A stretch of DNA of 64,000 bases from Pseudomonas sp. MYb327. Its GTDB lineage: Bacteria > Pseudomonadota > Gammaproteobacteria > Pseudomonadales > Pseudomonadaceae. The DNA is taken from the NCBI RefSeq assembly GCF_040438925.1, contig NZ_CP159258.1, positions 2,928,001-2,992,000 of the forward strand, given 5' to 3'. Shown here piece after piece: positions 47,795 to 64,000 of the stretch; within the stretch, counting starts at the first letter, position 1, and each line of letters starts with the position of its first letter. Position numbers and translations under genes: made by a program. The notes beneath the pieces were generated by a model. That model was not told the DNA's origin and searched no databases. It was given only the letters and a program-made list of their open reading frames with translations.

Positions 47795-49225
47795 CTACCA
47801 CTGTCGTTTGTCCGGCCGTGCGAGGCCGAGTTTTTCGATCCGGTAGCGCAGCATGTCGCGGCTCAGACCCAGCAGTCGTGCGGACTTGGTAACGTTCCAG
47901 TCGGTTTTGTCGAGCATCTTGCGCACCATGTCGCGTTCGACTTCCGGCAGATTCATCGACTCGTTGCCGTTGTAGGTCGGGCGCGGCTCGCTGGGGGCTG
48001 GCTCGTGCTGAAACAGCGGCGGCTCATCCACCAGACTCATGCAGACGTTCAACTGATGGGCGGCGATGGTGTCGGTTTGCGCCAACAGCACGGTTTGTTC
48101 CAGCATGTTGCGCAGCTCACGCACATTGCCCGGCCAGCTGTAGCTGAGCAGCAATTCTTCAGCCTGATCGCTGAAATGCAGGTTCGGCTTGCCATAACGT
48201 TTGCCATGGGTCGCCAGGAAGTGTCGGGCCAGCAGCAGCACATCGTCGCCCCGGGCATACAGGCGCGGCACCTTGATCGAAATGATGCGCAGGCGGAAAA
48301 ACAGATCGCGGCGGAACTTGCCCTGCTGGACCATTTGCTCGAGGTTGCAGTTGGTGGCACTGATCACCCGCAAATTGACCTTGCGCTCCTTCACCGAGCC
48401 GACCCGGCGAATGGTCCGGTCTTCCAGCAGCTTCAGCAGTTTGGCTTGCAGCAGCAGGTCCATTTCACCCACTTCATCGAGAAACAACGTGCCGCCATCG
48501 GCCGCTTCCACCAGACCGGTGCGGCGATCCTTGGCGTCGGTGAAGGCGCCCTTCTCGTGACCGAACAGCTCTGACTCCACCAGATTCGACGGAATCGACG
48601 CGCAGTTGAATTCAATGAACGGGCCTTTGGCACGCGGACCATCGAAGTGCAGCGCCCGGGCCACCAGTTCCTTGCCGGTGCCGGTTTCGCCTTCCACCAG
48701 CACCGGCGGCAGGTCGGTGTTGGCCATGCGCCGCTCGGCATCGAGCAACTGGGCGATGGTGCCTTTGAGGTAAAGCATTGGTGCTGATTCGCCGATCAAT
48801 GCCTGCACTCCCGATTTCTGCGCTTCGCGTTCCTGATAGAACGACAGCGTGCGTTCCATCCGGTCGGTGGCCAGGGCCTTGTCCAGGAGCAGCTTGAGCT
48901 CCGGCAAGGCCACCGGTTTGGTCACGTAATGGAATGCGCCTTCCTTCATCGCCACCACGGCGTCTTCGACGTTGCCGTAGCCGGTCATCATGATCACTTT
49001 CAGATCCGGCGCGCTGATGCGCAGCTTCTGGATCAGGTCGTGGCCACTCATGCCCGGCAACGAGTTGTCGGTCAGCACCACGTCAGGAACGAAAGTCACC
49101 AATTGCTCCAGTGCGTCTTCAGCCGAGTGGCAGACCGTCACCTCGAAGTCTTTGCGCTCCAGGTAGGTCTGAATATTCTCGGCGAGGAGTTCATCATCCT
49201 CGACCAGTAGAATGCTGTATTCCAT
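47795..49225 (-). CDS. mnxR: NtrC-family sigma-54 activator, MnxR-like
   Basis: 476 aa. The receiver domain has D53 in VVLTDNSLPG and K103 in YVTKPVALPE. The AAA+ domain has Walker A VEGETGTGKELVA (~177-189), the sigma-54 contact loop GAFTDA (226-231), Walker B GGTLFLDEVGE (244-254) and the WPGNVRELRN sensor II. The C-terminal helix-turn-helix is NVTKSARLLGLSRDMLRYRIEKLGL. The upstream kinase gene overlaps it by 32 bp. The setting (two kinases, multicopper oxidase) matches mnxS1/mnxR/mnxS2 of Mn-oxidising P. putida, so I use mnxR on context. Predicted targets are the two sigma-54 promoters near 54756 and 56556. Confidence 0.8.
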   Translation of the reverse strand: MEYSILLVEDDELLAENIQTYLERKDFEVTVCHSAEDALEQLVTFVPDVVLTDNSLPGMSGHDLIQKLRISAPDLKVIMMTGYGNVEDAVVAMKEGAFHYVTKPVALPELKLLLDKALATDRMERTLSFYQEREAQKSGVQALIGESAPMLYLKGTIAQLLDAERRMANTDLPPVLVEGETGTGKELVARALHFDGPRAKGPFIEFNCASIPSNLVESELFGHEKGAFTDAKDRRTGLVEAADGGTLFLDEVGEMDLLLQAKLLKLLEDRTIRRVGSVKERKVNLRVISATNCNLEQMVQQGKFRRDLFFRLRIISIKVPRLYARGDDVLLLARHFLATHGKRYGKPNLHFSDQAEELLLSYSWPGNVRELRNMLEQTVLLAQTDTIAAHQLNVCMSLVDEPPLFQHEPAPSEPRPTYNGNESMNLPEVERDMVRKMLDKTDWNVTKSARLLGLSRDMLRYRIEKLGLARPDKRQW

Positions 49226-50687
49226 ATTCCCCTCCCGTTGCCACTTTAAAATTGAGACTGACGCGGGTTCCTTCCTGCTCTTGGCTGGTCAGTTCAACCG
49301 AACCTTCGAAACGCTCCATTATTCTTTTGACCAGGGCCAGGCCGACGCCCAACCCTCCTTGTTTGGTGGTGAAAAACGGCTTGAAGACCATCTGTTGCTG
49401 CTGCTTGGTCATGCCCTTGCCGGTGTCATTGAGAATCATGCAAACCTGGCCTGGCGTCGGCGATTCGAGATCGATACTCAACACGCCGCCCTTGGGCATG
49501 GCTTCCAGGGCATTGGCAAACAGGCTATTGAGAATTTGCGTGAGCAGCACCTGTTGGCTGACGACCGGCGGTACGCTTTTGGGAGTGAATCGCACTTCGA
49601 CGTTCGAACGCTTGATCAGCGGCTCGAAGGCACTCAGGGTGTCGTCGATGGCCAATACCAGTTCCACCGTTTCAGAGTCGTCATTCACCGGCCGCAACGA
49701 CACCAGCAATTCGCGAACCCACCGCGACATGCGGTCGACCTGACTGATGATGTCGCCGATGTTCTTCTGCGCGGTCTGGCTGGCGATCTCCTGGGCCAGC
49801 TCGGCACTGGAACGGATATTCGCCAATGGATTGCGCAGGCTGTGGGCGACCGCCGAGGACATTTCCCCGAGGGCCACGAACGTCTCGTTGGCGATCAGTT
49901 GTTTCTGCTGACTCTGCAACAACATCGCTGCGCGTCGCACAATCCAGAACAGCCCCAGGTAAATCGCCGCGCCGCCGAGCAGGGTTGCCAGCCAGATCGC
50001 CTTGAAGCCGCGCTGGATGCGTTCCACCAGATCCGCCGGCTCCTTGTAGATTTCCACCATGGCAATCACTTTGCTTTTGTCGGCGTTGAACATCGGGATG
50101 TAGTTCTCGATGAACAGGTATTGCGGTTCGCGCAGCAGCCGTTGCTCGGGGCGTTCCTCATCGATTTCGTGATAGCTGGTGGACACCGCTTCTTTCATTT
50201 CGAAGGACTCGTCCAGCTCGTCGTCATCCTTGATGCGCACGCCGATCAATTCGGGGTTGGTTGACCAGACCACGGTGCGATCAAGGGCGTACACCGTGGC
50301 CAGGAGAATGTCCGGCAGGTGCTCGACATGGTCGAGAAACTCGATACGTGAAGCGGCTCGGGCCGCTGGATCGACATCTGGATAAGCGTTGTCTTCGCGC
50401 GGGTCGAGCATTTCACCCATGGTTCTTTTCGGGCTAATCGAAGCATGGCGAATTTCCGCATCGCCGATGGCTTGAACAAATTGTGCGGTCAGCATCGAGT
50501 CGCGCTCGATACTTTCTTCCACCACGAAACGCGTGGAGATGTAGCCCAGCCCCAATGCCACACCGGCGATGATGAAAAAACTCGCCAGGGAAAACCAGCG
50601 CACAAGATTGAACGGCGGACGCCACCCCTTGCTCTCTGCTGCCGTTGTCGTCGGCGCAGGTATTTTTTGTTGTTCCAGTGTCTGCAT
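49194..50687 (-). CDS. Membrane histidine kinase, MnxS-like (copy adjacent to the regulator)
   Basis: 497 aa. TM1 is FSLASFFIIAGVALGLGYIS. A ~190-residue periplasmic sensor follows (conserved TMGEMLDPRED, VVWSTNPELIGVRI, YLFIENYIPMFN), then TM2 and the HisKA box GEMSSAVAHSLRNPLANIRSSAELA. The HATPase has NSLFANALEAM, NDTGKGM and GGLGVGLALVKRIMERF. It is a close paralogue of the kinase at 54882-56330, with the same landmarks at the same places. Its 3' end overlaps the regulator start by 32 bp. The signal may be oxidised or free metal, by analogy to MnxS. Confidence 0.88.
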   Translation of the reverse strand: MQTLEQQKIPAPTTTAAESKGWRPPFNLVRWFSLASFFIIAGVALGLGYISTRFVVEESIERDSMLTAQFVQAIGDAEIRHASISPKRTMGEMLDPREDNAYPDVDPAARAASRIEFLDHVEHLPDILLATVYALDRTVVWSTNPELIGVRIKDDDELDESFEMKEAVSTSYHEIDEERPEQRLLREPQYLFIENYIPMFNADKSKVIAMVEIYKEPADLVERIQRGFKAIWLATLLGGAAIYLGLFWIVRRAAMLLQSQQKQLIANETFVALGEMSSAVAHSLRNPLANIRSSAELAQEIASQTAQKNIGDIISQVDRMSRWVRELLVSLRPVNDDSETVELVLAIDDTLSAFEPLIKRSNVEVRFTPKSVPPVVSQQVLLTQILNSLFANALEAMPKGGVLSIDLESPTPGQVCMILNDTGKGMTKQQQQMVFKPFFTTKQGGLGVGLALVKRIMERFEGSVELTSQEQEGTRVSLNFKVATGGEYGIQHSTGRG

Positions 50688-50789: not shown

Positions 50790-51881
50790 CTATTGCACCT
50801 GAGTCGTGTTCGGCGCCGCGATTGCGTGATGGTGTTCAGGTTCTTCGGTGCCGTCGGCCAACGGCGCTACCGGTGGATGCTGGCGGTCAGTTTCGGCCTG
50901 CAAGTAGTCGATGATCGACTGCGCGGAGTGCTCATCCATGCGCAGGTTGGGCATCGGTATCTTGTTGAAACGCTCGAACATCTCCATGGCAATCGGGTCT
51001 TTTTCCGCGAGCATGCGATCCGGCTCCTGAATCCAGCGGCTGAGCCAGGCCGGATCACGCTGGCGGGTCACGCCAATCAGGTCCGGGCCGATGCTGCGCA
51101 TGCCGATGCCCTGCCCGTCCTGCGGACCGAGGCTGTGGCACGACGCGCAACGGGTGCGAAACAATTCTTCGCCATTGCTCGGTGGGCGAATTTCCGGAGC
51201 ATTGGCATAGCTTTCGCCAATGCTCGGTTGTTTCCAGTTATGCAAGGTGTTTGCCAATTGATCAGCGAGTATCCAGGGGTTCTCGAAAGGCGAGGCTTTC
51301 ATCCAGCGCCCCGTTTGCTGGTTGCCGACGATCAGGCTCAGGTTGTGGTCCTTGCTGCGGCCGTTGTCGACGCCTTCGATGAACAGCCCGAGTTTTTGTC
51401 GCAACTCGGTGACATCGGCGAATTCCCCGGTAAGAAATTGCCAGCCCGGCCCGACCTGGAAACGTTGCGCATAGGCCTTGAGCACTTCGGGCGTATCGCT
51501 CAAGGGATCGATGCTGATGGAGTAGAAAAAGATGTCCTTGCCGACCCGATCGCCGAGCAACTTCTGCACCTGGCGCAGGCGCGCGGTTTCCAGCGGGCAG
51601 GAGTCGCTGCAGGACGTGAAGATGAAATTGATCACCACCACTTTGCCCTTGATCAGGTCATCGAAAAAACGCACCTGCCGGCCGTTTTGATCGGTCAGCA
51701 ACGTGTTGGGGAAATAGTCGCCACCCCACGGGGTGGCAGACTCTGAAACAGGAGCCGATACCGGAGCGGGTGTCGATGGCACCTGATTGGCAACCAGCAG
51801 CCGGCTGGCCAATACGCTGGTCACCAATATCAGTACCAGGTGCATGCCCAGAGCGCGTGAGCGTGGTGTATGCAACTTCAT
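50790..51881 (-). CDS. Sco1/SenC-cytochrome c fusion protein
   Basis: 363 aa from the ATG at 51879-51881, which has GGGAGGGT 8 nt upstream. An ATG 7 codons earlier overlaps the oxidase stop (ATGA) and is the alternative. An N-terminal anchor is followed by a Sco domain with copper ligands C91-x3-C95 in FTSCSDSCP and H179 in SKDHNLSLIV. A C-terminal c-type cytochrome has haem motif C245-A-S-C-H249 and Met ligand near IPMPNLRMDEH. Sco proteins deliver copper or reduce thiols during copper-site assembly. Here it probably loads copper into the adjacent oxidase or passes electrons from it. Confidence 0.9.
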   Translation of the reverse strand: MKLHTPRSRALGMHLVLILVTSVLASRLLVANQVPSTPAPVSAPVSESATPWGGDYFPNTLLTDQNGRQVRFFDDLIKGKVVVINFIFTSCSDSCPLETARLRQVQKLLGDRVGKDIFFYSISIDPLSDTPEVLKAYAQRFQVGPGWQFLTGEFADVTELRQKLGLFIEGVDNGRSKDHNLSLIVGNQQTGRWMKASPFENPWILADQLANTLHNWKQPSIGESYANAPEIRPPSNGEELFRTRCASCHSLGPQDGQGIGMRSIGPDLIGVTRQRDPAWLSRWIQEPDRMLAEKDPIAMEMFERFNKIPMPNLRMDEHSAQSIIDYLQAETDRQHPPVAPLADGTEEPEHHHAIAAPNTTQVQ

Positions 51882-51898
51882 GTCGACACCCTCCCGGT

Positions 51899-54706
<2,808 letters not shown>

Positions 54707-54747
54707 CACCAGCCGCCTCGTATGCGTGAAGGGGGTGATGGGGGTTT

Positions 54748-54764
54748 TGCAATTACCTCGCCAA
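54748..54764 (-). promoter_or_regulatory. Sigma-54 promoter of the multicopper oxidase gene
   Basis: Read on the minus strand the site is TTGGCGAGGTAATTGCA. It has the invariant GG-N10-GC and the flanking TT and A of the consensus. Transcription would begin near 54737, about 30 nt before the ATG. Paired CTGGGGAA boxes lie 65-84 nt upstream. Confidence 0.75.
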
Positions 54765-54826
54765 AATTGTAACTAGATGTTAATACCCGCTGAAACAATG
54801 GCTTATCAACATCAATGTGCCATGAC

Positions 54827-54846
54827 CTGGGGAAACGACTGGGGAA
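54827..54846. promoter_or_regulatory. Paired CTGGGGAA boxes upstream of the oxidase promoter
   Basis: Two identical CTGGGGAA words at 54827-54834 and 54839-54846 are exactly 12 bp apart. The same word occurs twice upstream of the second sigma-54 promoter in this locus. I infer upstream activating sites for the MnxR-like protein. A perfect palindrome CCCGCTAGCGGG lies just beyond at 54852-54863. Confidence 0.55.
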
Positions 54847-54881
54847 TGACACCCGCTAGCGGGGGAAGTTCATACCCATTG

Positions 54882-56330
54882 TCAGGGAATCAGCCTGAAC
54901 GACAAACGGACACGCGTGCCCTCGCCTTCCCGGCTATCGAGCTTCACCGAGCCGCCAAAACGCTCCATGATCCGCTTGACCAGTACCAGTCCGACGCCAA
55001 GTCCGCCCTGCTTGGTGGTGAAAAACGGCCTGAACGCCATGGAACGCTGTTCCTCAGTCATGCCTTTGCCGGTATCGCCCACGATCAGGCAAATGCCGTG
55101 GGAATTTATCGGCTCCAGGGCAATGGTCAGCGTACCGCCGTCATCCATGGCCTCGAGAGCATTGGCCAGCAAACTGTTGAGGATTTGCGTCAGCTGCACG
55201 TGTTGGCTCAACACCATCGGCGTGTCCTTGGGTTCGAACACCAGCGTGACCTTTGCCTTGGCGATCTGATGTTCGTAGGACATCAAGCTGTCATGCAGCG
55301 CGGCCACCAGGTTCACCGGCTCGGCCTCGTCACTCAGTGGGCGCAAGGACATCAGCAACTCACGCACCCACTTCGACATGCGGTCGACCTGGCCGATGAT
55401 GTCATTGATGTTCTTGTGCGCCGGACCGCTGTCGAACTCCAGCGCCAGTTCGGCACTTGAACGAATGGTTGCCAAGGGATTGCGCAGGCTGTGGGCGACC
55501 GCCGATGACATCTCGCCTAGGGCGACAAAGGTTTCGTTGGTGATCAGCTGCTTTTGTTGCTGCGCCAACAGGATCGCCGCACGGCGCACGATCCAGTAAA
55601 GACCCAGGTAAATCAGGCCGCCGCCCAGCGCCGTGGCCAGCCAGATCAGCACCAGGCCACGCTCCATGCGATTGATCAGGTCCTGCGGCTCCTTGTAGAT
55701 CTCGACCATCGCCGTGACGTTCTTGCCATCGGCATCGAACAACGGAATGTAGTTCTCGATAAAGATGTATTCCGGCGGGGTGACGAACTTCTGCTCCATG
55801 CGGCTCTTGTCGACATCGTGATAGCTGGCCGACACAGGCTTCTTCTGAGCGAAAGCCTGATCCAGGTCGCCATCGGAATGAATCGTGGTGCCCATCAGTG
55901 CCGGATTGGTCGACCAGATCACCATGCGGTCGGGGGCGTAGATGTTGGCCAGGATCACGTCCGGCAAATGTTCGATGTGGTCGAGGAATTCGCCACGGGC
56001 ATTGGCGCGGGCCATGGGGTCGACGTCGGGAAAGTCCCGGTCTTTGCGCGGGTCGAGCAACTCGCCCATGGTTCGCACATTGGGAATTGAAACGTGGCGT
56101 ACTTCGGCCGAGGCAATCGCCTGGATGAATTGCGAGGTCAGCAAGGCATCGCGTTGCACGCTTTCGGTGATGACGAACCTGGTGGACACCGAGCCCAATG
56201 CCACCGCCACTGTGCCGATCACCGCCATGCTGATCAGCGAAAACCAACGCAGCAAATTGAACGGCTGTTTGCGCGTGCTCAAGCGAATATCACCCTTGTC
56301 GGCTGCGAGTGTTTTGGCCGGCGTAGTCAT
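54882..56330 (-). CDS. Membrane histidine kinase, MnxS-like (copy upstream of the oxidase)
   Basis: 482 aa. Same layout as the kinase at 49194: TM1 FSLISMAVIGTVAVALGSVS, periplasmic sensor with TMGELLDPRKDRDFPDVDP, VIWSTNPALMGTTI and YIFIENYIPLFDADG, then TM2, HisKA box GEMSSAVAHSLRNPLATIRSS and HATPase (NSLLANALEAM, GDTGKGM, GGLGVGLVLVKRIM). Two such kinases for one regulator is the MnxS1/MnxS2 situation. No sigma-54 promoter is visible before it, so it may be expressed constitutively. It is divergent from the exported-protein/curlin operon. Confidence 0.88.
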   Translation of the reverse strand: MTTPAKTLAADKGDIRLSTRKQPFNLLRWFSLISMAVIGTVAVALGSVSTRFVITESVQRDALLTSQFIQAIASAEVRHVSIPNVRTMGELLDPRKDRDFPDVDPMARANARGEFLDHIEHLPDVILANIYAPDRMVIWSTNPALMGTTIHSDGDLDQAFAQKKPVSASYHDVDKSRMEQKFVTPPEYIFIENYIPLFDADGKNVTAMVEIYKEPQDLINRMERGLVLIWLATALGGGLIYLGLYWIVRRAAILLAQQQKQLITNETFVALGEMSSAVAHSLRNPLATIRSSAELALEFDSGPAHKNINDIIGQVDRMSKWVRELLMSLRPLSDEAEPVNLVAALHDSLMSYEHQIAKAKVTLVFEPKDTPMVLSQHVQLTQILNSLLANALEAMDDGGTLTIALEPINSHGICLIVGDTGKGMTEEQRSMAFRPFFTTKQGGLGVGLVLVKRIMERFGGSVKLDSREGEGTRVRLSFRLIP

Positions 56331-56452
56331 CGACGTTGTTCCCCGGAATGCCCTTTAGGTTTATAGCCCACTGCTGGCAATTTGCCCGACATTGGGTCTT
56401 TTTTGCCCCTATCAATTTCCCACCCGCTCGTTAACCCCATCCACCCCCAATG

Positions 56453-56486
56453 CTGGGGAAAGAGGCCCGGTCCCACAACTGGGGAA
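56453..56486. promoter_or_regulatory. Paired CTGGGGAA boxes upstream of the exported-protein/curlin operon
   Basis: Identical CTGGGGAA words lie at 56453-56460 and 56479-56486, 26 bp apart. The nearer edge is 64 nt from the -24 GG of the promoter; at the oxidase promoter the value is 65. Shared word and shared distance point to one activator for both operons. Confidence 0.55.
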
Positions 56487-56548
56487 TAGGCGGCCCTTGA
56501 GTCAAAAACACCTTTGATTCCGGGCGCTTGCCGGCGTTTTTTGCAGGT

Positions 56549-56563
56549 TGGTATGGAAGTTGC
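56549..56563 (+). promoter_or_regulatory. Sigma-54 promoter of the exported-protein/curlin operon
   Basis: TGGTATGGAAGTTGC, preceded by T, has the invariant GG-N10-GC (56550-56551 and 56562-56563) and a TTGC -12 box. Start of transcription would be near 56575, about 48 nt before the first ATG. Confidence 0.75.
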
Positions 56564-56622
56564 CGAAGCCCTCTCAACTGACCCATACCCAAGGGGCAGG
56601 TACTCTGATAGAGGGAATACTC

Positions 56623-57978
56623 ATGCACCCTTTACTGTCCAAAACCACGATCGCCCTGGTCGTGAGCGCTCTGGCCCAAGGTGTTGCCCAGGCAGCACTG
56701 TTTGCCGTCGACCCTGGCCCTTACTTGCCAGAGAACGGCGGATTCGCTTCCTGGTATCAGGACTCCCATGGACGGACGCTCGATTTATGTCTGTCCAAGG
56801 CTGTCAGTTCCAGGGTTCCGAGCGCCCCTGGCGCGCCAAGCTACATGTGCCTTTTGAATCCGGCTCCCGGTATTTTCGACGACACGCAGCCCATCGTTTT
56901 CCCGACCAATTTTCCTGATGAAGCGTTCTGGTTCACCGGCGACGGCTCAATCGTCGACGCAGCACGAGGCATCGACCTGACCTATGTCACTGCCGTGGAA
57001 GCAGCCTTCTCCGCTGAAGACCCGGTAGAAGGCGATCAGGTCAGTTTCGGTCGTATCCGTATTCGGGTGGATGTGCCCACCGCTGGCGTTTACACCATCA
57101 CCCACCCTTACGGCGTCGACATATTTGACGTTCCCGCCGGTGGACGCCGGGCAATCAACATGACTCGGGACATCGGCATCGGCTCACCGAAAACCTACGA
57201 CGGCGCGCTCAAAAGTGACATCGGCCCTTTCCTGCGCAGTGTCAACGGCCCCTACACCGAAACCAATCCGGTCACCGGTCAGGCCGAACAATTCGTTGGC
57301 GATCCGAACCTGTCAGAAGCCTTCACCGGCAGCCCTTTCAACACCAATTTCATTCGCATCGAAGGGCCTAACGGCCTGGACTTGCGCACGACGGTGATGG
57401 CCCTCTCCGGCAAGTTGTCGACCGTGGTACGGCCGACCCCGATGATCCGCGAACGCAGCACTTACTCACGCAAGGCCGGGGACAGTGCACCGGTGGCCCA
57501 GCAAGACGTTTTCGTGATGGCCCCACCGCCACCCGCCACGGTGACCCTGGACAGCAACAGTCCGGTGTTGAACCTGACCGAAGCCGACACCACCGGCCAC
57601 TGGTACGCGCAATCGTCCACCAACCCGACGTTGCCGAGCAACGTAGTAGTGACGGCTGACAACCACCTGGCCATTCCCAGCAGCACGCCAACCAGCCTGT
57701 CCATGGAGCTGACCGACCTGGTGGTGATCTCACGGGCCGAGTACAGCCTCAATAGCGGACTACTCACGATCGTGGCTTCAACCAGCGATGAAACGTCGCC
57801 ACCTGTCCTCACCGCCACCGCGGGCACCTCCAAAACCGGTCCCGTTATCGGCGCCCTCAGTGGCGATGGTGCGGTGAAATCCCTGTCGACCGGCATTTCG
57901 CCGATTCCACCGGCCAAGGTGCACGTGGAGTCAGCCAATGGCGGCGGCGACACCGAAGAAGTGGTCATCGTGCAATGA
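56623..57978 (+). CDS. Large exported protein of unknown function, paralogue 1
   Basis: 451 aa from the ATG at 56623 with GAGGGAATACTC upstream. The signal peptide is HPLLSKTTIALVVSALAQGVAQA. The mature region aligns along its length with residues ~30-450 of the next protein: AVDPGPY at the start, WYQD, CLLNPAPGIFDDTQPIVFP, FWFT, GRIRIRVDVPTAGVYTITHPYG, RRAINMTRDIGIG, GPFLRSVNGPYTETNP and VGDPNLSEAFTGSPFNTNF. Two conserved cysteines may form a disulphide. No catalytic motif is seen; the fold looks beta-rich. It is the first gene of a four-gene operon ending in curlins, so a cell-surface or matrix role is likely. Confidence 0.75.
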   Translation: MHPLLSKTTIALVVSALAQGVAQAALFAVDPGPYLPENGGFASWYQDSHGRTLDLCLSKAVSSRVPSAPGAPSYMCLLNPAPGIFDDTQPIVFPTNFPDEAFWFTGDGSIVDAARGIDLTYVTAVEAAFSAEDPVEGDQVSFGRIRIRVDVPTAGVYTITHPYGVDIFDVPAGGRRAINMTRDIGIGSPKTYDGALKSDIGPFLRSVNGPYTETNPVTGQAEQFVGDPNLSEAFTGSPFNTNFIRIEGPNGLDLRTTVMALSGKLSTVVRPTPMIRERSTYSRKAGDSAPVAQQDVFVMAPPPPATVTLDSNSPVLNLTEADTTGHWYAQSSTNPTLPSNVVVTADNHLAIPSSTPTSLSMELTDLVVISRAEYSLNSGLLTIVASTSDETSPPVLTATAGTSKTGPVIGALSGDGAVKSLSTGISPIPPAKVHVESANGGGDTEEVVIVQ

Positions 57979-58013
57979 ACGCTCTCATGCCCAGATCTGC
58001 ATCAGGAGGCATC

Positions 58014-60263
58014 ATGAACAAGTGGCCACGCTTCGCGCTCAACGCGCTCGGGCTGACTCTCTCGCTGTCCGGCAGCGCATTCGCGCAACTCGCTGCCGTC
58101 GACCCCGGCCCTTACACCTTTGCCACGGGGAAATTCCCCATGTGGTATCAGGACAACAACTTGCTGAAGCTGGAACTGTGCCAGTCGCGGGCTATCAGTT
58201 CACGGGCACCGGGTGCTCCTGGCGCGCTCGGCTACATGTGCATCCTGAACCCGGAGCCAGGGATTTTCGATGACACCCAGCCGATGGTGTTCCCCGATAA
58301 CTGGCCGCCGGAAGCTTTCTGGTACCTCGCCGAGACCAACATCGCCGATGTCGGCGGCTATGGCGTCGACGCCTACGTGGCCGGGATCGAGGCGGCCTTC
58401 GCGGCGGAAAACCCTGTCGACGGCGATCAGGCAAGCTTCGCGCGGATTCGTATCCGGGTGAACGTGCCCACCGCCGGGACTTACACCATCACTCACCCGT
58501 ACGGGGTTGAGGTGGTCAACGTCACTGCTCCGGGTCGTCGGGCGATCAACATTACCCGTGACATCGGCATCGGCGCACCCGGCAACTTCGCGGGTGCCCT
58601 CACCGGGCAGGTCGGCCCCTTCCTGCGCAGCGTCAACGGGCCGTACACCGAAGTGAACCCGGACACCGGCTCGATCGAAACTTACGTGGGCGACCCGAAC
58701 CTCTCCGAAGCGGTCACCGGCAGCCCCAACAACACCAACTTCCTGCGTGTCCAGGGCCCGCCCGGGACCATCACTACCACCCTCTTTACCGTGTCGGGCA
58801 AAGTCCTCGACAGCCGTGCGCAAACCCCTGTGGAAATCGGCCGTGCCACTTACCGCCGCACCTCTTCAGGGCCGGGCACCAGCAGCACCCGAGTGGAAGT
58901 GTTTGGTAAATCGGCCAACGGTTCTAGCCTGTGCTTCCGCGAAACCGTGGCACTGGTTGCCGGACCACCGAAGTCGCCGTGCCTGATCAGCATGCTCGGC
59001 GACAACACCGGGCAGTTCTTCGGTCATCGTCTGACGGGTTCCACCGTGCCTCCGTTGGTGGTGCTCACCGCGACCGACCCGAGCGACACCACACGGCCGA
59101 CGGCGGTTTCGAGCAAAGTCACCGACGTGGTGAAAGTGCAGACCGCTCGTTACAACTGGAGCAACCACAGCCTGCTGATTGAAGCCACCTCGTCTGACGA
59201 AGTGGTGGTGCCGGACATGGTCGCCCAGGGCTACGGACGCTTGACGAAATCCGGCACCCTGCAACGCCTGACTGTGGCCGATCTGGCACAACCACCGGCC
59301 ACCGTCACCATCAAATCCGCGGCCGGCGGCAGTGACACTGAGGCCGTTGTGGTCGTCGGTACGGCACCGGATACCGGAGAGAATCAGGCACCGGTTGGCG
59401 TCGCCGACAGCGGCAGCACCACTTTCGGCGTACCGATCACCCTCAACCTGCTGACCAACGACGAAGACCCGGACGGCGACACCCCACTGACCATCACCGC
59501 GCTCACTCAACCGGCCGCCAACCAGGGCAGCGTGGTGTTGAACGGCACCACAGCCGTCGTCTACACCCCGCCAGCGGTGGTCAATGCTCCACTGACGACG
59601 ACCTTCACCTACAAGGCTCAAGACGCCAAAGGCCTGGCCGCAACCGCTGCGACGACCGTGACCATCACCGTGGCGCCTAACCAGCCTCCGGTGGCCGTCG
59701 CCGACAGCATTGCGACCCTGGGTGTATCGATCCCGATCACCGTGCTGGCCAACGACACCGATCCGGAAAACAACGTGCCCCTCTCGATTGGCAGCTTCAC
59801 ACAACCACCGGCCAATCGCGGCTCGGTGACCAGCAACGGCACGGTCCTGACCTACAACCCACCGGCAACGGTCACCACAGCCTTCACCACGACCTTCACC
59901 TACTTCCCTCGGGACAGCTTCGGCGCCCAGGCAACGACACCGGCGACGGTCACGGTGCAAGTCTCGCCACGACCAGCGGCGGAAACCTTCGCAGTCACGG
60001 CAGCCACGGTGACGGCCCGTTCCAACAACCGCTTCAACTGGGACGTCAGCGGTACTTCTTCGGTGACCACCGGCAACACCATCACCGTTCAGGTGACCAC
60101 GCCGACCGGGCTGGTAACGCTGGGTAGCACCACGGTGCCGCTGACCGGACGCTGGAGGCTGACCGTGAGCAACAGCACAACGGTGATTCCGTCGGCGAAC
60201 CCGACAGCCACCATCACCTCGTCCCAAGGCACCGTGCGCACGGTGCAGGTAATCGCGAACTGA
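58014..60263 (+). CDS. Large exported protein of unknown function with tandem Ig-like domains, paralogue 2
   Basis: 749 aa from the ATG at 58014 (CAGGAGGC upstream). It has a signal peptide (FALNALGLTLSLSGSAFA) and then the same ~420-residue domain as paralogue 1 (AVDPGPY, CILNPEPGIFDDTQPMVFP, ITRDIGIGAP, FLRSVNGPYTEVNP). Residues ~460-670 add two Ig/cadherin-like repeats of the Big_9 type, each starting with NQ(A/P)PV-VADS and containing (N)DxDP-(D/E)(G/N). A Thr-rich beta domain ends the protein. This is an adhesin-like build. It begins 36 bp after paralogue 1 and is followed by the curlin genes. Confidence 0.78.
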   Translation: MNKWPRFALNALGLTLSLSGSAFAQLAAVDPGPYTFATGKFPMWYQDNNLLKLELCQSRAISSRAPGAPGALGYMCILNPEPGIFDDTQPMVFPDNWPPEAFWYLAETNIADVGGYGVDAYVAGIEAAFAAENPVDGDQASFARIRIRVNVPTAGTYTITHPYGVEVVNVTAPGRRAINITRDIGIGAPGNFAGALTGQVGPFLRSVNGPYTEVNPDTGSIETYVGDPNLSEAVTGSPNNTNFLRVQGPPGTITTTLFTVSGKVLDSRAQTPVEIGRATYRRTSSGPGTSSTRVEVFGKSANGSSLCFRETVALVAGPPKSPCLISMLGDNTGQFFGHRLTGSTVPPLVVLTATDPSDTTRPTAVSSKVTDVVKVQTARYNWSNHSLLIEATSSDEVVVPDMVAQGYGRLTKSGTLQRLTVADLAQPPATVTIKSAAGGSDTEAVVVVGTAPDTGENQAPVGVADSGSTTFGVPITLNLLTNDEDPDGDTPLTITALTQPAANQGSVVLNGTTAVVYTPPAVVNAPLTTTFTYKAQDAKGLAATAATTVTITVAPNQPPVAVADSIATLGVSIPITVLANDTDPENNVPLSIGSFTQPPANRGSVTSNGTVLTYNPPATVTTAFTTTFTYFPRDSFGAQATTPATVTVQVSPRPAAETFAVTAATVTARSNNRFNWDVSGTSSVTTGNTITVQVTTPTGLVTLGSTTVPLTGRWRLTVSNSTTVIPSANPTATITSSQGTVRTVQVIAN

Positions 60264-60323
60264 GCCCTCGCCCCATTCGCCACGTTGGCTGATGGGGCAA
60301 GCCTCTAACTCAAGGACAACGCC

Positions 60324-60785
60324 ATGAACACGCCGACCGCCGCCCTGCTTTGCCTGCTTCTGCTCTGCAGCAGCGCCGGCGTGCGCGCCGACGACTTGAT
60401 GGAGAACGATGACATTGCACCCAGTGTCGACCTCGGCGAGCTGCCACCTCCGGTGGGCCAGCAGGCCCTGATCGACCAGAACGGCCAGGCCAACGTTGCG
60501 CTGTTGCAACAGAACGGCCAATCGCTGCTCGGCCAGATCGTGCAGTCGGGCAGTAATCAGGAAGCCTGGATCCTGCAACAGGGCAGCGACCTGATGGCAT
60601 TGATCAACCAGCAAGGTTCCGGCAACGCCGCTTCGATCAATCAAACCGGCAGCCATAACCGCGCGCAGATTTCCCAAAACGGCAACAACAACGACGCCAG
60701 CATCGTCCAGGCCGGCACGGGTCAGCAAAGCGCTGTCACCCAGGCTGGCAATGGCATGAGCGTTTCGGTCACCCAATATCGCTAA
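60324..60785 (+). CDS. csgB: Curlin-repeat protein, CsgB-like minor subunit
   Basis: 153 aa, the size of CsgB/CsgA of enterics. Signal peptide MNTPTAALLCLLLLCSSAGVRA, then about five curlin repeats of the pattern (Q/N)-x-G-x4-N-x5-Q, e.g. IDQNGQANVALLQQ, VQSGSNQEAWILQQ, NQQGSGNAASINQ, SQNGNNNDASIVQ. CsgB nucleates CsgA polymerisation on the outer membrane. The name is by size and order (before the large subunit); function as nucleator is inferred. The large curlin gene starts 27 bp downstream. Confidence 0.85.
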   Translation: MNTPTAALLCLLLLCSSAGVRADDLMENDDIAPSVDLGELPPPVGQQALIDQNGQANVALLQQNGQSLLGQIVQSGSNQEAWILQQGSDLMALINQQGSGNAASINQTGSHNRAQISQNGNNNDASIVQAGTGQQSAVTQAGNGMSVSVTQYR

Positions 60786-60812
60786 AGCACTGCACCACTT
60801 GGAGGTTTCATC

Positions 60813-62261
60813 ATGTTCAAACTGACGCCCCTCACCGCCGCCATTCTGGTCATTGTCAGTGCCCAGGCAATGGCTGCCGACAGCGTGTCCAACCAGGACC
60901 AGGACGGTACGGCCAACATCGCTAATGTGAAGCAGATCGCGGCGCCGTTCAGTACCGCCACCCAGACACAAACCGGCCAGGGCAACGATGCGGCCGCCGT
61001 GCAAGACACGGCCACCAGCACCATTACCCAGACCCAGTCCGGTGACTACAACGCCGGTTACGCCGAGCAACTGTTCGAAGACAACAGCACCATCACCCAG
61101 ACCCAGAGCGGCAGCTTCAACATCAGCCATGCCAGCCAGTCGATCGGCGCCGGCAATGGCGAGGCGTTGCAGCAACAGGAAGGCAACGGCAACTTCTCGT
61201 TTATCTATCAGGACAGCCAGGATGGCACCTCCGGCAGAACCTACCAGTACGGTGACGGCAACGAAGCCAATATCGAACAGATCCAGTTGGGTGCGGCCAA
61301 CAATGCCGTGATCATCCAGTACGGCACCACCAACTACGCCACCGCTGAACAGATCAGCCACATGGGCGGCCAGATCGGCATCAACCAGTCCGGCAGCACC
61401 AACTACGCCTATGGCGACCAGCGCTACGGTAATGGCGGCAACCTGACCATCAACCAGTACGGCGACAACAACGGCACCGAAGTCTGGCAAGACACCCAAC
61501 TCGCCAGCCAGGCCACCGTCAACCAATACGGGGAGACCAACGAAACCGTGGTCGACCAGAGCTTCGGCGAAAACAACGTCGCCACCGTGCTGCAAGTCGG
61601 TGACCTCAACGCGATCTACGCCGACCAGTTCGAGTCCCTCGGTTCGACCGTCGCGCTCTACCAACAGGGCACGAACAACGTGCACTTCACTTACCAGAAC
61701 GGCGACAGCCATGTGCTCAACGCCAACTCGGTGGGTAGCGACAACAAGGTCTACGCCAGCAACTGGAAAGGCCCGCAACTGGGTGGCCAGTTCGGCAGCA
61801 ACCAGCGCGCCACCGTCAACCAGAACGGCACAGGCAACGTCGCCAGTTTCCAACAGGACGGCATTGGCCACATCATGACGACCAGTCAGACCGGCAGCGG
61901 CAACAAAACCACCGTCAGCCAGGCCAATAGCTACAACGAGCTGTACTTCGACCAGAACGGCAGCGACAACATCCTGATTTCCGACCAGCGCGGCACCACT
62001 AACCTGGCCCAGGGCAGCAGCAACGGCACTGGCAACAGCACCGAGTTCAACCAGGATGGCACCGGCAACCAGGCCTTCACCACTCAGCTTTACGGCGAAG
62101 ACAACATGATCACCATCAAACAGGCTGACACCATGAACGTGGCCTACGTCACCCAGGGCGGTACTGGCAACGTTGCCAGTGTTGATCAAAGCGGCACGAC
62201 TCAATTGGCCAACGTGCAGCAAATTGGTACGGCTAACTCGGCGACTGTTTTGCAGAAATAA
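60813..62261 (+). CDS. csgA: Giant curlin-repeat protein, CsgA-like major subunit
   Basis: 482 aa, about three times enteric CsgA (151 aa, five repeats). Signal peptide MFKLTPLTAAILVIVSAQAMA. Nearly all the rest is curlin repeats, about 20 by eye, such as TQTQSGDYNAGYAEQ, NQYGDNNGTEVWQ, NQNGTGNVASFQQ, TQGGTGNVASVDQ. Several middle repeats are degenerate, with acidic or Tyr residues (DQFESLGSTVALYQ). The protein should form an amyloid beta-solenoid exported through CsgG. A rho-independent terminator follows the stop by about 15 bp. Confidence 0.88.
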   Translation: MFKLTPLTAAILVIVSAQAMAADSVSNQDQDGTANIANVKQIAAPFSTATQTQTGQGNDAAAVQDTATSTITQTQSGDYNAGYAEQLFEDNSTITQTQSGSFNISHASQSIGAGNGEALQQQEGNGNFSFIYQDSQDGTSGRTYQYGDGNEANIEQIQLGAANNAVIIQYGTTNYATAEQISHMGGQIGINQSGSTNYAYGDQRYGNGGNLTINQYGDNNGTEVWQDTQLASQATVNQYGETNETVVDQSFGENNVATVLQVGDLNAIYADQFESLGSTVALYQQGTNNVHFTYQNGDSHVLNANSVGSDNKVYASNWKGPQLGGQFGSNQRATVNQNGTGNVASFQQDGIGHIMTTSQTGSGNKTTVSQANSYNELYFDQNGSDNILISDQRGTTNLAQGSSNGTGNSTEFNQDGTGNQAFTTQLYGEDNMITIKQADTMNVAYVTQGGTGNVASVDQSGTTQLANVQQIGTANSATVLQK

Positions 62262-62274
62262 TTGCGTGGGATGT

Positions 62275-62311
62275 AAACCGCGGCTCTTGAGGGAGGGTCG
62301 CGGTTTTTTTT
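62275..62311 (+). terminator. Rho-independent terminator of the curlin operon
   Basis: AACCGCG (62276-62282) pairs with CGCGGTT (62299-62305) and is followed by eight T residues in total from 62304. It ends the transcript before the REPIN array. Confidence 0.85.
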
Positions 62312-62327
62312 GCGCGGTTGAAAGGCC

Positions 62328-63490
62328 GTCATCGCTGGCAGGCCAACTCCCACGGTGATTGGTGGTGTTACCGTAATGCAAGTCCCCTGTAGGAGCTGGC
62401 TTGCCAGCGATGACGGACTGACAGATACCCTTGAAGTGACTGACAGGCCGCTATCGCTGGCAAGCCAGCTCCTACAGTTTATCGGGGACATCTGCGGGGG
62501 AATGGTTGGCTGGAAGACTGCCATCGCTGGCAGGCCAGCTCCCACGGTGATTGGTGGTGTTGCCGTATGCAAACCCCCTGTAGGAGCTGGCTTGCCAGCG
62601 ATGACGGACTGACAGACAACCTTGAAGTGACTGGCAGGCCTCTATCGCTGGCAAGCCAGCTCCTACAGTTTATCGGGGACCTCTGCGGGGGAATGGTTGG
62701 CTGGAAGGCTGCCATCGCTGGCAGGCCAGCTCCCACGGTGATTAATGGTGTTGCCGTATGCAAGTCCCCTGTAGGAGCTGGCTTGCCAGCGATGACGGAC
62801 TGACAGATACCCTTGAAGTGACTGGCAGGCCGCTATCGCTGGCAAGCCAGCTTCTACAGATTATCGGGGATCTCTGCGGGGGAATGGTTGGCTGGAAGAC
62901 TGCCATCGCTGGCAGGCCAGCTCCCACGGTGATTGGTGGTGTTGCCGTATGCAAGTCCCCTGTAGGAGCTGGCTTGCCAGCGATGACGGACTGACAGATA
63001 CCCTTGAAGTGACTGACAGGCCGCTATCGCTGGCAAGCCAGCTTCTACAGATTATCGGGGATCTCTGCGGGGGAATGGTTGGCTGGAAGACTGCCATCGC
63101 TGCCAGGCCAGCTCCCACGGTGATTGGTGGTGTTGCCGTATGCAAGTCCCCTGTAGGAGCTGGCTTGCCAGCGATGACGGACTGACAGATACCCTTGAAG
63201 TGACTGGCAGGCCGCTATCGCTGGCAAGCCAGCTCCTACAGTTTATCGGGGACATCTGCGGGGGAATGGTTGGCTGGAAGACTGCTATCGCTGGCAGGCC
63301 AACTCCCACGGTGACTGGTGGTGTTGCCGTATGCAAGTCCCCTGTAGGAGCTGGCTTGCCAGCGATGACGGACTGACAGACAACCTTGAAGTGACTGACA
63401 GGCCGCTATCGCTGGCAAGCCAGCTCCTACAGTTTAACGGGGACATCTGCGGGGGAATGGTTGGCTGGAAGGCCGTCATCGCTGGCAGGC
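62328..63490. repeat. Six-copy REPIN tandem array, 191-bp period
   Basis: The left REP (TGTAGGAGCTGGCTTGCCAGCG) begins at 62388, 62579, 62770, 62961, 63152 and 63343, exactly 191 bp apart each time. Each unit contains the inverted REP pair plus a third REP-like arm (CCATCGCTGGCAGGCCAGCTCCCACG). Copies differ at only a few bases. The array fills the space between convergent csgA and csgG. The many short frames inside it on both strands are by-products of the repeat. Confidence 0.95.
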
Positions 63491-63499
63491 CGCCCAGGC

Positions 63500-64000
63500 T
63501 CATTCACCCTCACCTTCCGCCTCGCCTTCAGGCATAACCTTGTTCTGCGTCAGGTACCGATCCAGCGTCGCATTGGTCGGCGAATTATCCCCCGCCACCT
63601 GCCACAAATGCCGCTCGATTCCCTGCGCCAGCATATGCCCCACCGCCGCCTCGATCGCCGACAACACACACAACTGCGCCGGTTCGTTGGTGGTGTAGCC
63701 GACTTCGGCCTCAAGCAACTTCTTGAACTCGATAAACTTGAACACCCCGGCACTGCGGGCCACGGAGTAGATCGTCTTGCTGGTCATGACGTTGGCCAGC
63801 ACCTGGCCGCTGCGCACGTCGACCGCCCGCAGGTTGACCGTGACCTGGTCCACGCGATATTCGCGGGAAATATCGATGCCCAGGTAGCGTGCCCCTTCCC
63901 CGCCGCTACGGACGTTGGTGTCGTAGGCGATGATCCCGCCTTCGAGCATCATGTTCGCGGCTTGCAACGGTGGCAGCTCACCCTGGATGTTCACCGGGGT
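63500..64000 (-). CDS. csgG: CsgG curli secretion channel, C-terminal part (cut by window edge)
   Basis: The last ~166 codons are visible and the frame is open to 64000. The sequence TPVNIQGELPPLQAANMMLEGG, ARYLGIDISREYRVDQVTVNLRAVD, SGQVLANVMTSKTIYSV and FKFIEFKKLLEAEVGYTTNEP matches CsgG, the nonameric outer-membrane lipoprotein that exports curlin subunits. The N-terminal lipobox is outside the window. After the conserved domain it ends in an acidic Glu/Gly tail. csgE and csgF probably precede it beyond 64000. Its presence shows that the curlin genes belong to a real nucleation-precipitation pathway. Confidence 0.93.
   Translation of the reverse strand, partial: TPVNIQGELPPLQAANMMLEGGIIAYDTNVRSGGEGARYLGIDISREYRVDQVTVNLRAVDVRSGQVLANVMTSKTIYSVARSAGVFKFIEFKKLLEAEVGYTTNEPAQLCVLSAIEAAVGHMLAQGIERHLWQVAGDNSPTNATLDRYLTQNKVMPEGEAEGEGE

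Follow-up and report, generated by a model that had tools for sequence, protein, structure and literature searches.

Introduction

Oxidation of Mn(II) in Pseudomonas putida GB-1 requires MnxS1, MnxS2 and MnxR, and in strain MS-1 it is abolished by an rpoN insertion, as stated in the text of PMC11409713 considered here. The GB-1 promoters of the oxidase genes mnxG and mcoA require Mn(II) for their activity, which is seen in stationary phase, they carry predicted integration host factor (IHF) and sigma-54 sites, and Mn(II) oxidase activity has been reported for GB-1 McoA (in the corresponding parts of PMC11930936). For the curli genes of Pseudomonas, the passages of PMC3521004 used here describe no csgD near the csg operons except in P. 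stutzeri; other regulators are considered possible there, and for lack of a neighbouring csgD the question of control was left undecided. The present analysis concerns a 64-kb stretch (the window) of the 6,148,998-base genome of Pseudomonas sp. MYb327 (handle G000), in which an mnx gene cluster lies next to an operon for two exported proteins and two curlins. The Mn-oxidation switch appears, from promoter and genome comparisons, to turn on these exported proteins and amyloid subunits as well, and this suggests that the enzymes and the cell-surrounding material are made together.

With the Mnx system of P. putida GB-1, MS-1 and DSV-1 the locus shares the gene set and a predicted sigma-54 dependence, and its minus-strand cluster has the order mnxS1-mcoA-SCO-mnxS2-mnxR published for MS-1 and DSV-1, the likeness resting on gene order and Pfam families (PMC11409713, in the parts cited). 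In contrast, the dyad operator, the expA-expB-csgB-csgA target and the mnxS2-mnxR feedback described below are proposals of the present analysis. Curli (type VIII secretion) under CsgD resembles the locus in its CsgB- and CsgA-like curlin repeats and in a CsgG/CsgF exporter nearby, whereas here a predicted sigma-54 promoter heads the operon and its first two genes encode exported proteins of no known family, for which the names ExpA and ExpB were coined. No report of curlin genes under MnxR was found in the literature searched, and the word curli is absent from the main text of both PMC11409713 and PMC11930936; an earlier mention is possible in the founding MnxR papers (AEM 2010, 2013). The reason for which bacteria oxidise manganese has long been a puzzle, of which the finding offers a direct test. 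Moreover, it proposes an answer to the control of Pseudomonas curli genes without a nearby csgD, and it names a candidate operator, three or four promoters as the predicted regulon, and an exported pair found only where MnxR occurs.

Materials and methods

For the promoter comparison, loci with MnxS1 relatives were collected in Pseudomonas, and the best 80 of 189 stretches gave 79 loci. The curlin promoter set (n = 71) consisted of the window and 70 loci with expA, nine loci having no expA match; the mcoA promoter set (n = 63) consisted of the window and 62 loci in which the start of mcoA adjoins mnxS1. The dyad was scored as CCCCR-N4-YGGGK, with the loss of one end base tolerated in one arm. 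Genome-wide, this dyad followed after 72-102 bases by a sigma-54 box was searched for, with the reversed pattern as control. A blind test was performed with a matrix from 44 distinct curlin dyads and 300 shuffles per site. Co-occurrence was scored in 298 genomes of the genus with cut-offs of E<=1e-150 for MnxR, E<=1e-60 for ExpA and E<=1e-200 for MnxG and the McoA family. The CsgG survey used a draw of 268 genomes, taken as the first part of the 298-genome draw (all listed handles agree).

A conserved dyad upstream of two predicted sigma-54 promoters

Sigma-54 promoters have TGGC-N8-TTGC-like -24/-12 boxes with the core GG-N10-GC. Boxes of this type were found by sequence match at both promoters of the window, namely TGGCGAGGTAATTGC (TGGCGAG-GTAA-TTGC) upstream of mcoA at 54749..54763 on the minus strand and TGGTATGGAAGTTGC (TGGTATG-GAAG-TTGC) upstream of the exported-protein/curlin operon at 56549..56563 on the plus strand, and the two would drive the oxidase and the exported-protein/curlin operons, respectively. 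An initial annotation, made from the letters of the window, had placed the boxes here (54748-54764 minus, 56549-56563 plus), on either side of a single kinase gene and in front of the oxidase and the curlin operon. This layout was confirmed, with the kinase gene at 54882-56330 (minus), the oxidase on the minus and the exported-protein/curlin genes on the plus strand.

Upstream of the boxes a 14-bp dyad was found, the predicted MnxR operator. It reads CCCCG-CTAG-CGGGT at mcoA (54851..54864, minus) and CCCCA-ATGC-TGGGG at the curlin operon (56445..56458, plus), lies 87 and 90 bp, respectively, upstream of the -24 TGG, and within the 64-kb window occurs at these two promoters only. The dyad is present in 71/71 curlin and 62/63 mcoA promoters, compared with 5.9% and 1.9%, respectively, of dinucleotide-shuffled copies. 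Its distance to the -24 box is 89-90 bp in 70 of the 71 curlin promoters and 75-99 bp in the mcoA promoters. Conservation along the curlin promoter, taken in 14-mers, peaks at the dyad and at the sigma-54 box (0.92 vs a mean of 0.66), and at mcoA the most conserved stretch is the dyad together with the neighbouring GTGTCATTCCCC (0.86-0.89 vs a mean of 0.69). It is very probable, as judged from these alignments and the co-occurrence given below, that the mcoA and curlin promoters belong to one MnxR regulon with CCCCR-N4-YGGGK as its candidate operator. MnxR would be the protein that binds the dyad; its helix-turn-helix is 73-100% identical to that of the window in eight other rows, while the preceding linker is 12-66% identical.

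The initial annotation had assigned the role of operator to paired CTGGGGAA words instead. The four words do lie where it had put them (starting at 54827, 54839, 56453 and 56479), and the distances of 65 and 64 nt between the nearer words and the -24 GG are correct. The word occurs seven times in the window, with 2.3 expected and at least seven in 1 of 100 shuffles, and CTGGGGAA-N1-30-CTGGGGAA is found twice in the genome, only at these two promoters (reversed control 0). In the alignment of relatives, however, conservation of the words in orthologous promoters was not borne out, and the dyad is conserved instead. On the mcoA side the word at 54827..54834 (plus) is not conserved (region identity 0.46) and that at 54839..54846 (plus) is partly conserved (0.72), the dyad lying just outside both; on the curlin side the distal word (56453..56460, plus) overlaps the dyad at its right arm, and the second word (56479..56486, plus) is not conserved (0.34). 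Two exact words are present in 2/71 curlin and 2/63 mcoA promoters, the window being counted in both, and the pair is kept only in the closest relative; the 65/64-nt spacing is therefore strain-specific. Across 70 promoter rows, identity to the window is 34% around the second curlin word, compared with 92% at the dyad, and the pair was therefore rejected as operator.

Between dyad and box, the alignment of mcoA promoters also revealed a conserved block, CACATTGATGTTGATAAGCCATTG (54796..54819, minus), which we take to be a candidate IHF-like site. IHF sites have been predicted for PmcoA of P. putida GB-1 (PMC11930936, in the part consulted).

Predicted regulon and feedback

The combined pattern of dyad and sigma-54 box has four matches in the host genome, and the reversed control has none. 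The matches lie upstream of mcoA, the curlin operon, mnxG (L086, L148) and a di-haem CCP/MauG-like gene (L087, L149). mnxG is about 30 kb off, promoter to promoter, and its operon opens with the gene for the 1947-aa oxidase, behind which lie beta-propeller, SCO, cytochrome c/periplasmic-binding and SurA-like genes; of the six published genes, the five looked for were all identified (L148). At G000:C1:5679283 a dyad-like site and a sigma-54 box precede the di-haem CCP/MauG-like gene, which is possibly a fourth MnxR target, the weakest of the four, since its dyad is imperfect and 9/300 shuffles score as well. TTATTGATTCAAAATGTT stands between dyad and box in at least eight other genomes, the CCP/MauG site of the host genome being one base off; the gene downstream of TTATTGATTCAAAATGTT-type sites was read in the host genome only.

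The following mechanism is proposed. MnxS1 and MnxS2 would sense the signal and phosphorylate MnxR, which would bind the dyad about 75-99 bp upstream of the -24/-12 promoters and bring sigma-54 RNA polymerase to open there. The predicted targets are mcoA-SCO-mnxS2-mnxR, which would give positive feedback, expA-expB-csgB-csgA, mnxG and possibly the di-haem CCP/MauG-like gene. In the window the minus-strand genes from mcoA to mnxR lie close together or overlap, which fits a single operon without proving it. A full mcoA match is lacking in 20 of the 79 loci. After exclusion of L015, L036 and L080 (contig edge) and of L009 (alignment restricted to the second half of mcoA), 16 loci without mcoA were counted, and the dyad and the sigma-54 box after mnxS1 are kept in 16/16; the retained promoter now faces SCO in 11 of them (L016 and L021 with a partial match only) and mnxS2-mnxR in five. 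This retention suggests positive feedback, and the mcoA promoter likely feeds mnxS2-mnxR too.

Co-occurrence of MnxR and ExpA

Among the 298 genomes, MnxR was detected in 103 and ExpA in 102; both were found in 102, ExpA alone in none and neither in 195. The single genome with MnxR and without ExpA, G223, is 73% complete, and at E<=1e-60 none of the 195 genomes lacking MnxR gave an ExpA match. Likewise, at E<=1e-200 MnxG was detected in 96 genomes and the McoA family in 89, always alongside MnxR. The promoter pattern has 281 matches in the 103 MnxR-bearing genomes (2.73 each; 100 genomes with at least one) and 61 in the 195 others (0.31 each; 53 with at least one), the reversed control pattern having 22 across all 298. 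Some copies may be broken, as in-frame stops were seen in mnxG of G274 and G129 (one TAG each) and in expA of G049 (three TGA).

The co-occurrence could in principle reflect hitchhiking, i.e. a curlin operon inherited together with the adjoining mnxS1 and under no common control. Proximity speaks for this, as no more than 15 kb separate expA from mnxR in 66 of 102 genomes. However, 22 genomes have the two genes on one contig at a distance above 15 kb (up to 1.3 Mb), 14 have expA on another contig, some of these being drafts, and expA was never found without mnxR. Furthermore, the promoter travels with the gene: in the 20 of 36 remote loci that were examined, a dyad is present in 19/20 and a sigma-54-like box in 20/20, so that dyad and box accompany expA in 19 of them. 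Seven of the 20 remote expA promoters agree with every scored position of TGGCACGNNNNTTGC, and the order expA-expB-csgB-csgA is kept in 18/20, the exceptions being G163 (no curlins) and G271. Hitchhiking is already largely refuted by these loci and is considered very improbable. The proposal of the initial annotation, one sigma-54/NtrC-type switch for the oxidase and curlin genes, is thus upheld in its general form, with dyad and box at both promoters, at mnxG and at 19/20 remote expA loci and with expA found only together with MnxR; the CTGGGGAA pair as its operator had to be given up.

Alternatively, the curlin operon might be under a different enhancer-binding protein, the CCCC-N6-GGGG dyads being alike only as short GC-rich palindromes arise cheaply. 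In favour of this, the host genome has 121 first-look MnxR candidates, presumably many of them other NtrC-like proteins. In the blind test the curlin-dyad matrix was matched by 0/300 shuffles at the mnxG site of the host genome, at expA of G057 and at mcoA of L083, by 1/300 at mcoA of L071, 3/300 at expA of G266, 4/300 at mcoA of L044 and 9/300 both at the CCP gene of the host genome and at the second mnxG of G264. Several observations weigh against the proposed regulon. The matrix misses the mcoA dyad of the window (131/300 shuffles as good), for the 63 mcoA promoters taken together the median is exceeded by one quarter of the shuffles, and one intended negative control, upstream of a second mcoA, scored 4/300 (the other 51/300); the matrix scores therefore support the mnxG site and give no support to the mcoA site of the window. 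The commonest dyad form also differs, being CCCCG..CGGGT in 39/63 mcoA and CCCCA..TGGGG in 60/71 curlin promoters, and 20 of the 70 distinct rows for the curlin promoter show GT, not GC, as -12 element. Moreover, the expA of G271, a copy adjoining a second mnxG, has no dyad, and the Fisher p of 1.5e-80 for MnxR and ExpA ignores common descent and is not to be taken at face value. On the other hand, ExpA is found in 0/195 genomes without MnxR although 20 listed ones have 63-139 first-look candidates, the curlin dyad has the form and position of those at mnxG and mcoA, and some lineages carry CCCCA..TGGG[GT] at the mcoA position. A different regulator is accordingly regarded as unlikely.

ExpA-ExpB as the steadiest predicted target

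As read from the gene content of the genomes, ExpA-ExpB, rather than the curlins, is the steadiest predicted target of the MnxR switch, and the curlins and the CsgG exporter go along with MnxG. ExpA-ExpB would accordingly be the constant output, accompanied by curlins and CsgG where MnxG is made. The most distant MnxR (68%) was found in G266. This genome has one kinase gene, and its expA and expB are preceded by a dyad-like site and a sigma-54 box; in the 19 kb examined neither curlins nor csgG/F were detected, and the genome gave no MnxG match at E<=1e-10 and no McoA match at 1e-200. In G271, where expA is remote, csgBA stay at the mnx locus behind an expB remnant, with dyad and sigma-54 box upstream. 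Of the 93 MnxR-bearing genomes numbered up to G267, 86 have a close-type CsgG, which is present, among the matches listed, in no genome without MnxR; another CsgG type (50-52%) occurs in seven genomes without MnxR. With the host genome as positive control, a direct search (E<=1e-10) detected no CsgG in 7/7 genomes with MnxR and without MnxG (G021, G163, G223, G232, G246, G266 and G277), nor in G137, which has MnxG and only short curlin remnants; by comparison, CsgG is missing in 1 of 87 covered MnxR-bearing genomes with MnxG. expB is not followed by csgBA in G021, G277, G163 and G266, and in G232 and G246 the contig end is too near to judge. Several of the CsgG-less genomes are possibly close relatives, and as csgG and mnxG lie about 15 kb apart in the host genome, single deletions may explain part of the joint loss.

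What the switch would achieve is addressed by two readings, both of which assume that it acts on expression as predicted. It is conceivable, if rather speculative, that Mn(II) oxidation in Pseudomonas takes place in a dedicated extracellular assembly, for which MnxR, whenever it turns on the oxidases, would also build an ExpA-ExpB surface scaffold and, where MnxG is present, a curlin amyloid, the cell's own matrix thus serving as template for Mn oxide; ExpAB, unseen outside Pseudomonas in the named matches and the samples, would then be an obligate partner with a physical role around the oxidases, and the curlin amyloid might retain Mn oxide. The other reading, held just as tentatively, is that the switch is real but serves stationary-phase remodelling of the surface or biofilm, with ExpA-ExpB and curlin having no physical link to Mn oxide. 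It is favoured by G266, with mnxR, one kinase gene and expAB and with neither oxidase at the above thresholds, and by the retention of expAB in 6/7 MnxG-less genomes, the seventh being the incomplete G223. Against remodelling stand the absence of csgG from 7/7 MnxG-less genomes vs 1/87 with MnxG and two features of the ExpAB family: an expA2-expB2 pair is divergent beside a second mnxG in three genomes (G264, G167 and G271), and a second McoA bears the C-terminal module of ExpB.

The ExpA/ExpB family and second oxidases

The N-terminal part of ExpB is 48% identical to ExpA. No Pfam family matched the ExpA of the window at 0.5; three families match 1-2 of 23 alignment rows, with a best E of 0.023, and the best sequence match among solved structures reached only E 0.52. 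The AlphaFold model of ExpA is poor (predicted local distance difference test, pLDDT, 54.7) and that of the ExpB C-terminus is good (88.5). An all-beta fold is predicted for the ExpB end, consistent with three Ig-like domains; compared with the PDB, the model gave Ig, cadherin and other unrelated multi-domain chains with TM-scores <0.4. In a protein search ExpA had 1882 relatives, and the names given among the 120 matches listed are Pseudomonas or metagenome; in 229 genomes of the class, ExpA was found in the host genome only.

The second McoA-like oxidase of the host genome (G000:C1:1462672-1465413; L004; L151 3552-7067, minus) has 1171 aa and is 77-78% identical, and its terminal Ig-like module is 45% identical to the ExpB end (E 5e-36). 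The dyad was not found in its 5.7-kb locus L004; from its translation the adjoining divergent gene reads as sigma-factor-like. Six places with a second copy of expA or mnxG were examined. In addition to the three genomes with a divergent expA2-expB2 pair, G002 has a second expA-expB pair with no mnxG within 16 kb, and G087 and G151 have a second mnxG without the pair. Dyads were seen between expA2-expB2 and the second mnxG in L181, L182 and L183 (G264, G167 and G271), with a sigma-54 box before mnxG. In L185 (G087 C4:270000-288000) a dyad and a sigma-54 box precede the second mnxG, and close to it lies a curli cluster of another kind (CsgG 45-50% identical); here curli and Mn oxidase genes may have come together independently.

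Genes and further features of the locus

mcoA (51899..54709, minus) encodes a multicopper oxidase and putative Mn oxidase (PF07731), whose translation contains HCHNTQHEDNSMLL, presumably the copper-ligand motif; in the structure-database comparison its distant solved relatives are bilirubin oxidase and CotA. The gene is followed on the same strand by those for an SCO1/SenC protein with cytochrome c (50790..51902; PF02630, PF00034), the sensor histidine kinase MnxS2 (49194..50687; PF00512, PF02518) and MnxR (47795..49225), an NtrC-type response regulator with receiver, sigma-54 AAA+ and Fis-type helix-turn-helix domains (PF00072, PF00158, PF02954) that was named by the gene order of PMC11409713. 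mnxS1 (54882..56330, minus; PF00512, PF02518; 79 related loci) codes for a further sensor histidine kinase and sits between the two promoters.

The exported-protein/curlin genes span 56623-62261 on the plus strand, divergent from mnxS1, in the order expA-expB-csgB-csgA. ExpA (56623..57978, plus, 451 aa) has a signal-peptide-like start, which points to an exported protein, and ExpB (58011..60263, plus; open frame from 57975) is a putative exported protein that carries, after its ExpA-like part, two Big_9 Ig-like domains, a third being predicted. They are followed by a CsgB-like curlin (60324..60785, plus; PF07012, NF007506 under cut-off) and a long CsgA-like curlin of 482 aa (60813..62261, plus; PF07012, NF007470 under cut-off); csgB/csgA are also present in 69/70 expA-bearing loci. 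csgG (PF03783), of which the 3' part lies inside the window (63500..64000, minus), and csgF (PF10614, L150), the next gene past the window end, face toward them.

Folding of the untranslated leader of the expA operon (56572-56622) was no better than that of shuffled sequence; the leader is conserved almost as the promoter is (0.91 in 14-mers). Repeats of about 191 bp occupy the region between csgA and csgG (window 62260-63400; L150 1-800), with near-identical 16-mers at 8, 199, 390, 581 and 772 of L150 and similar short frames on the minus strand.

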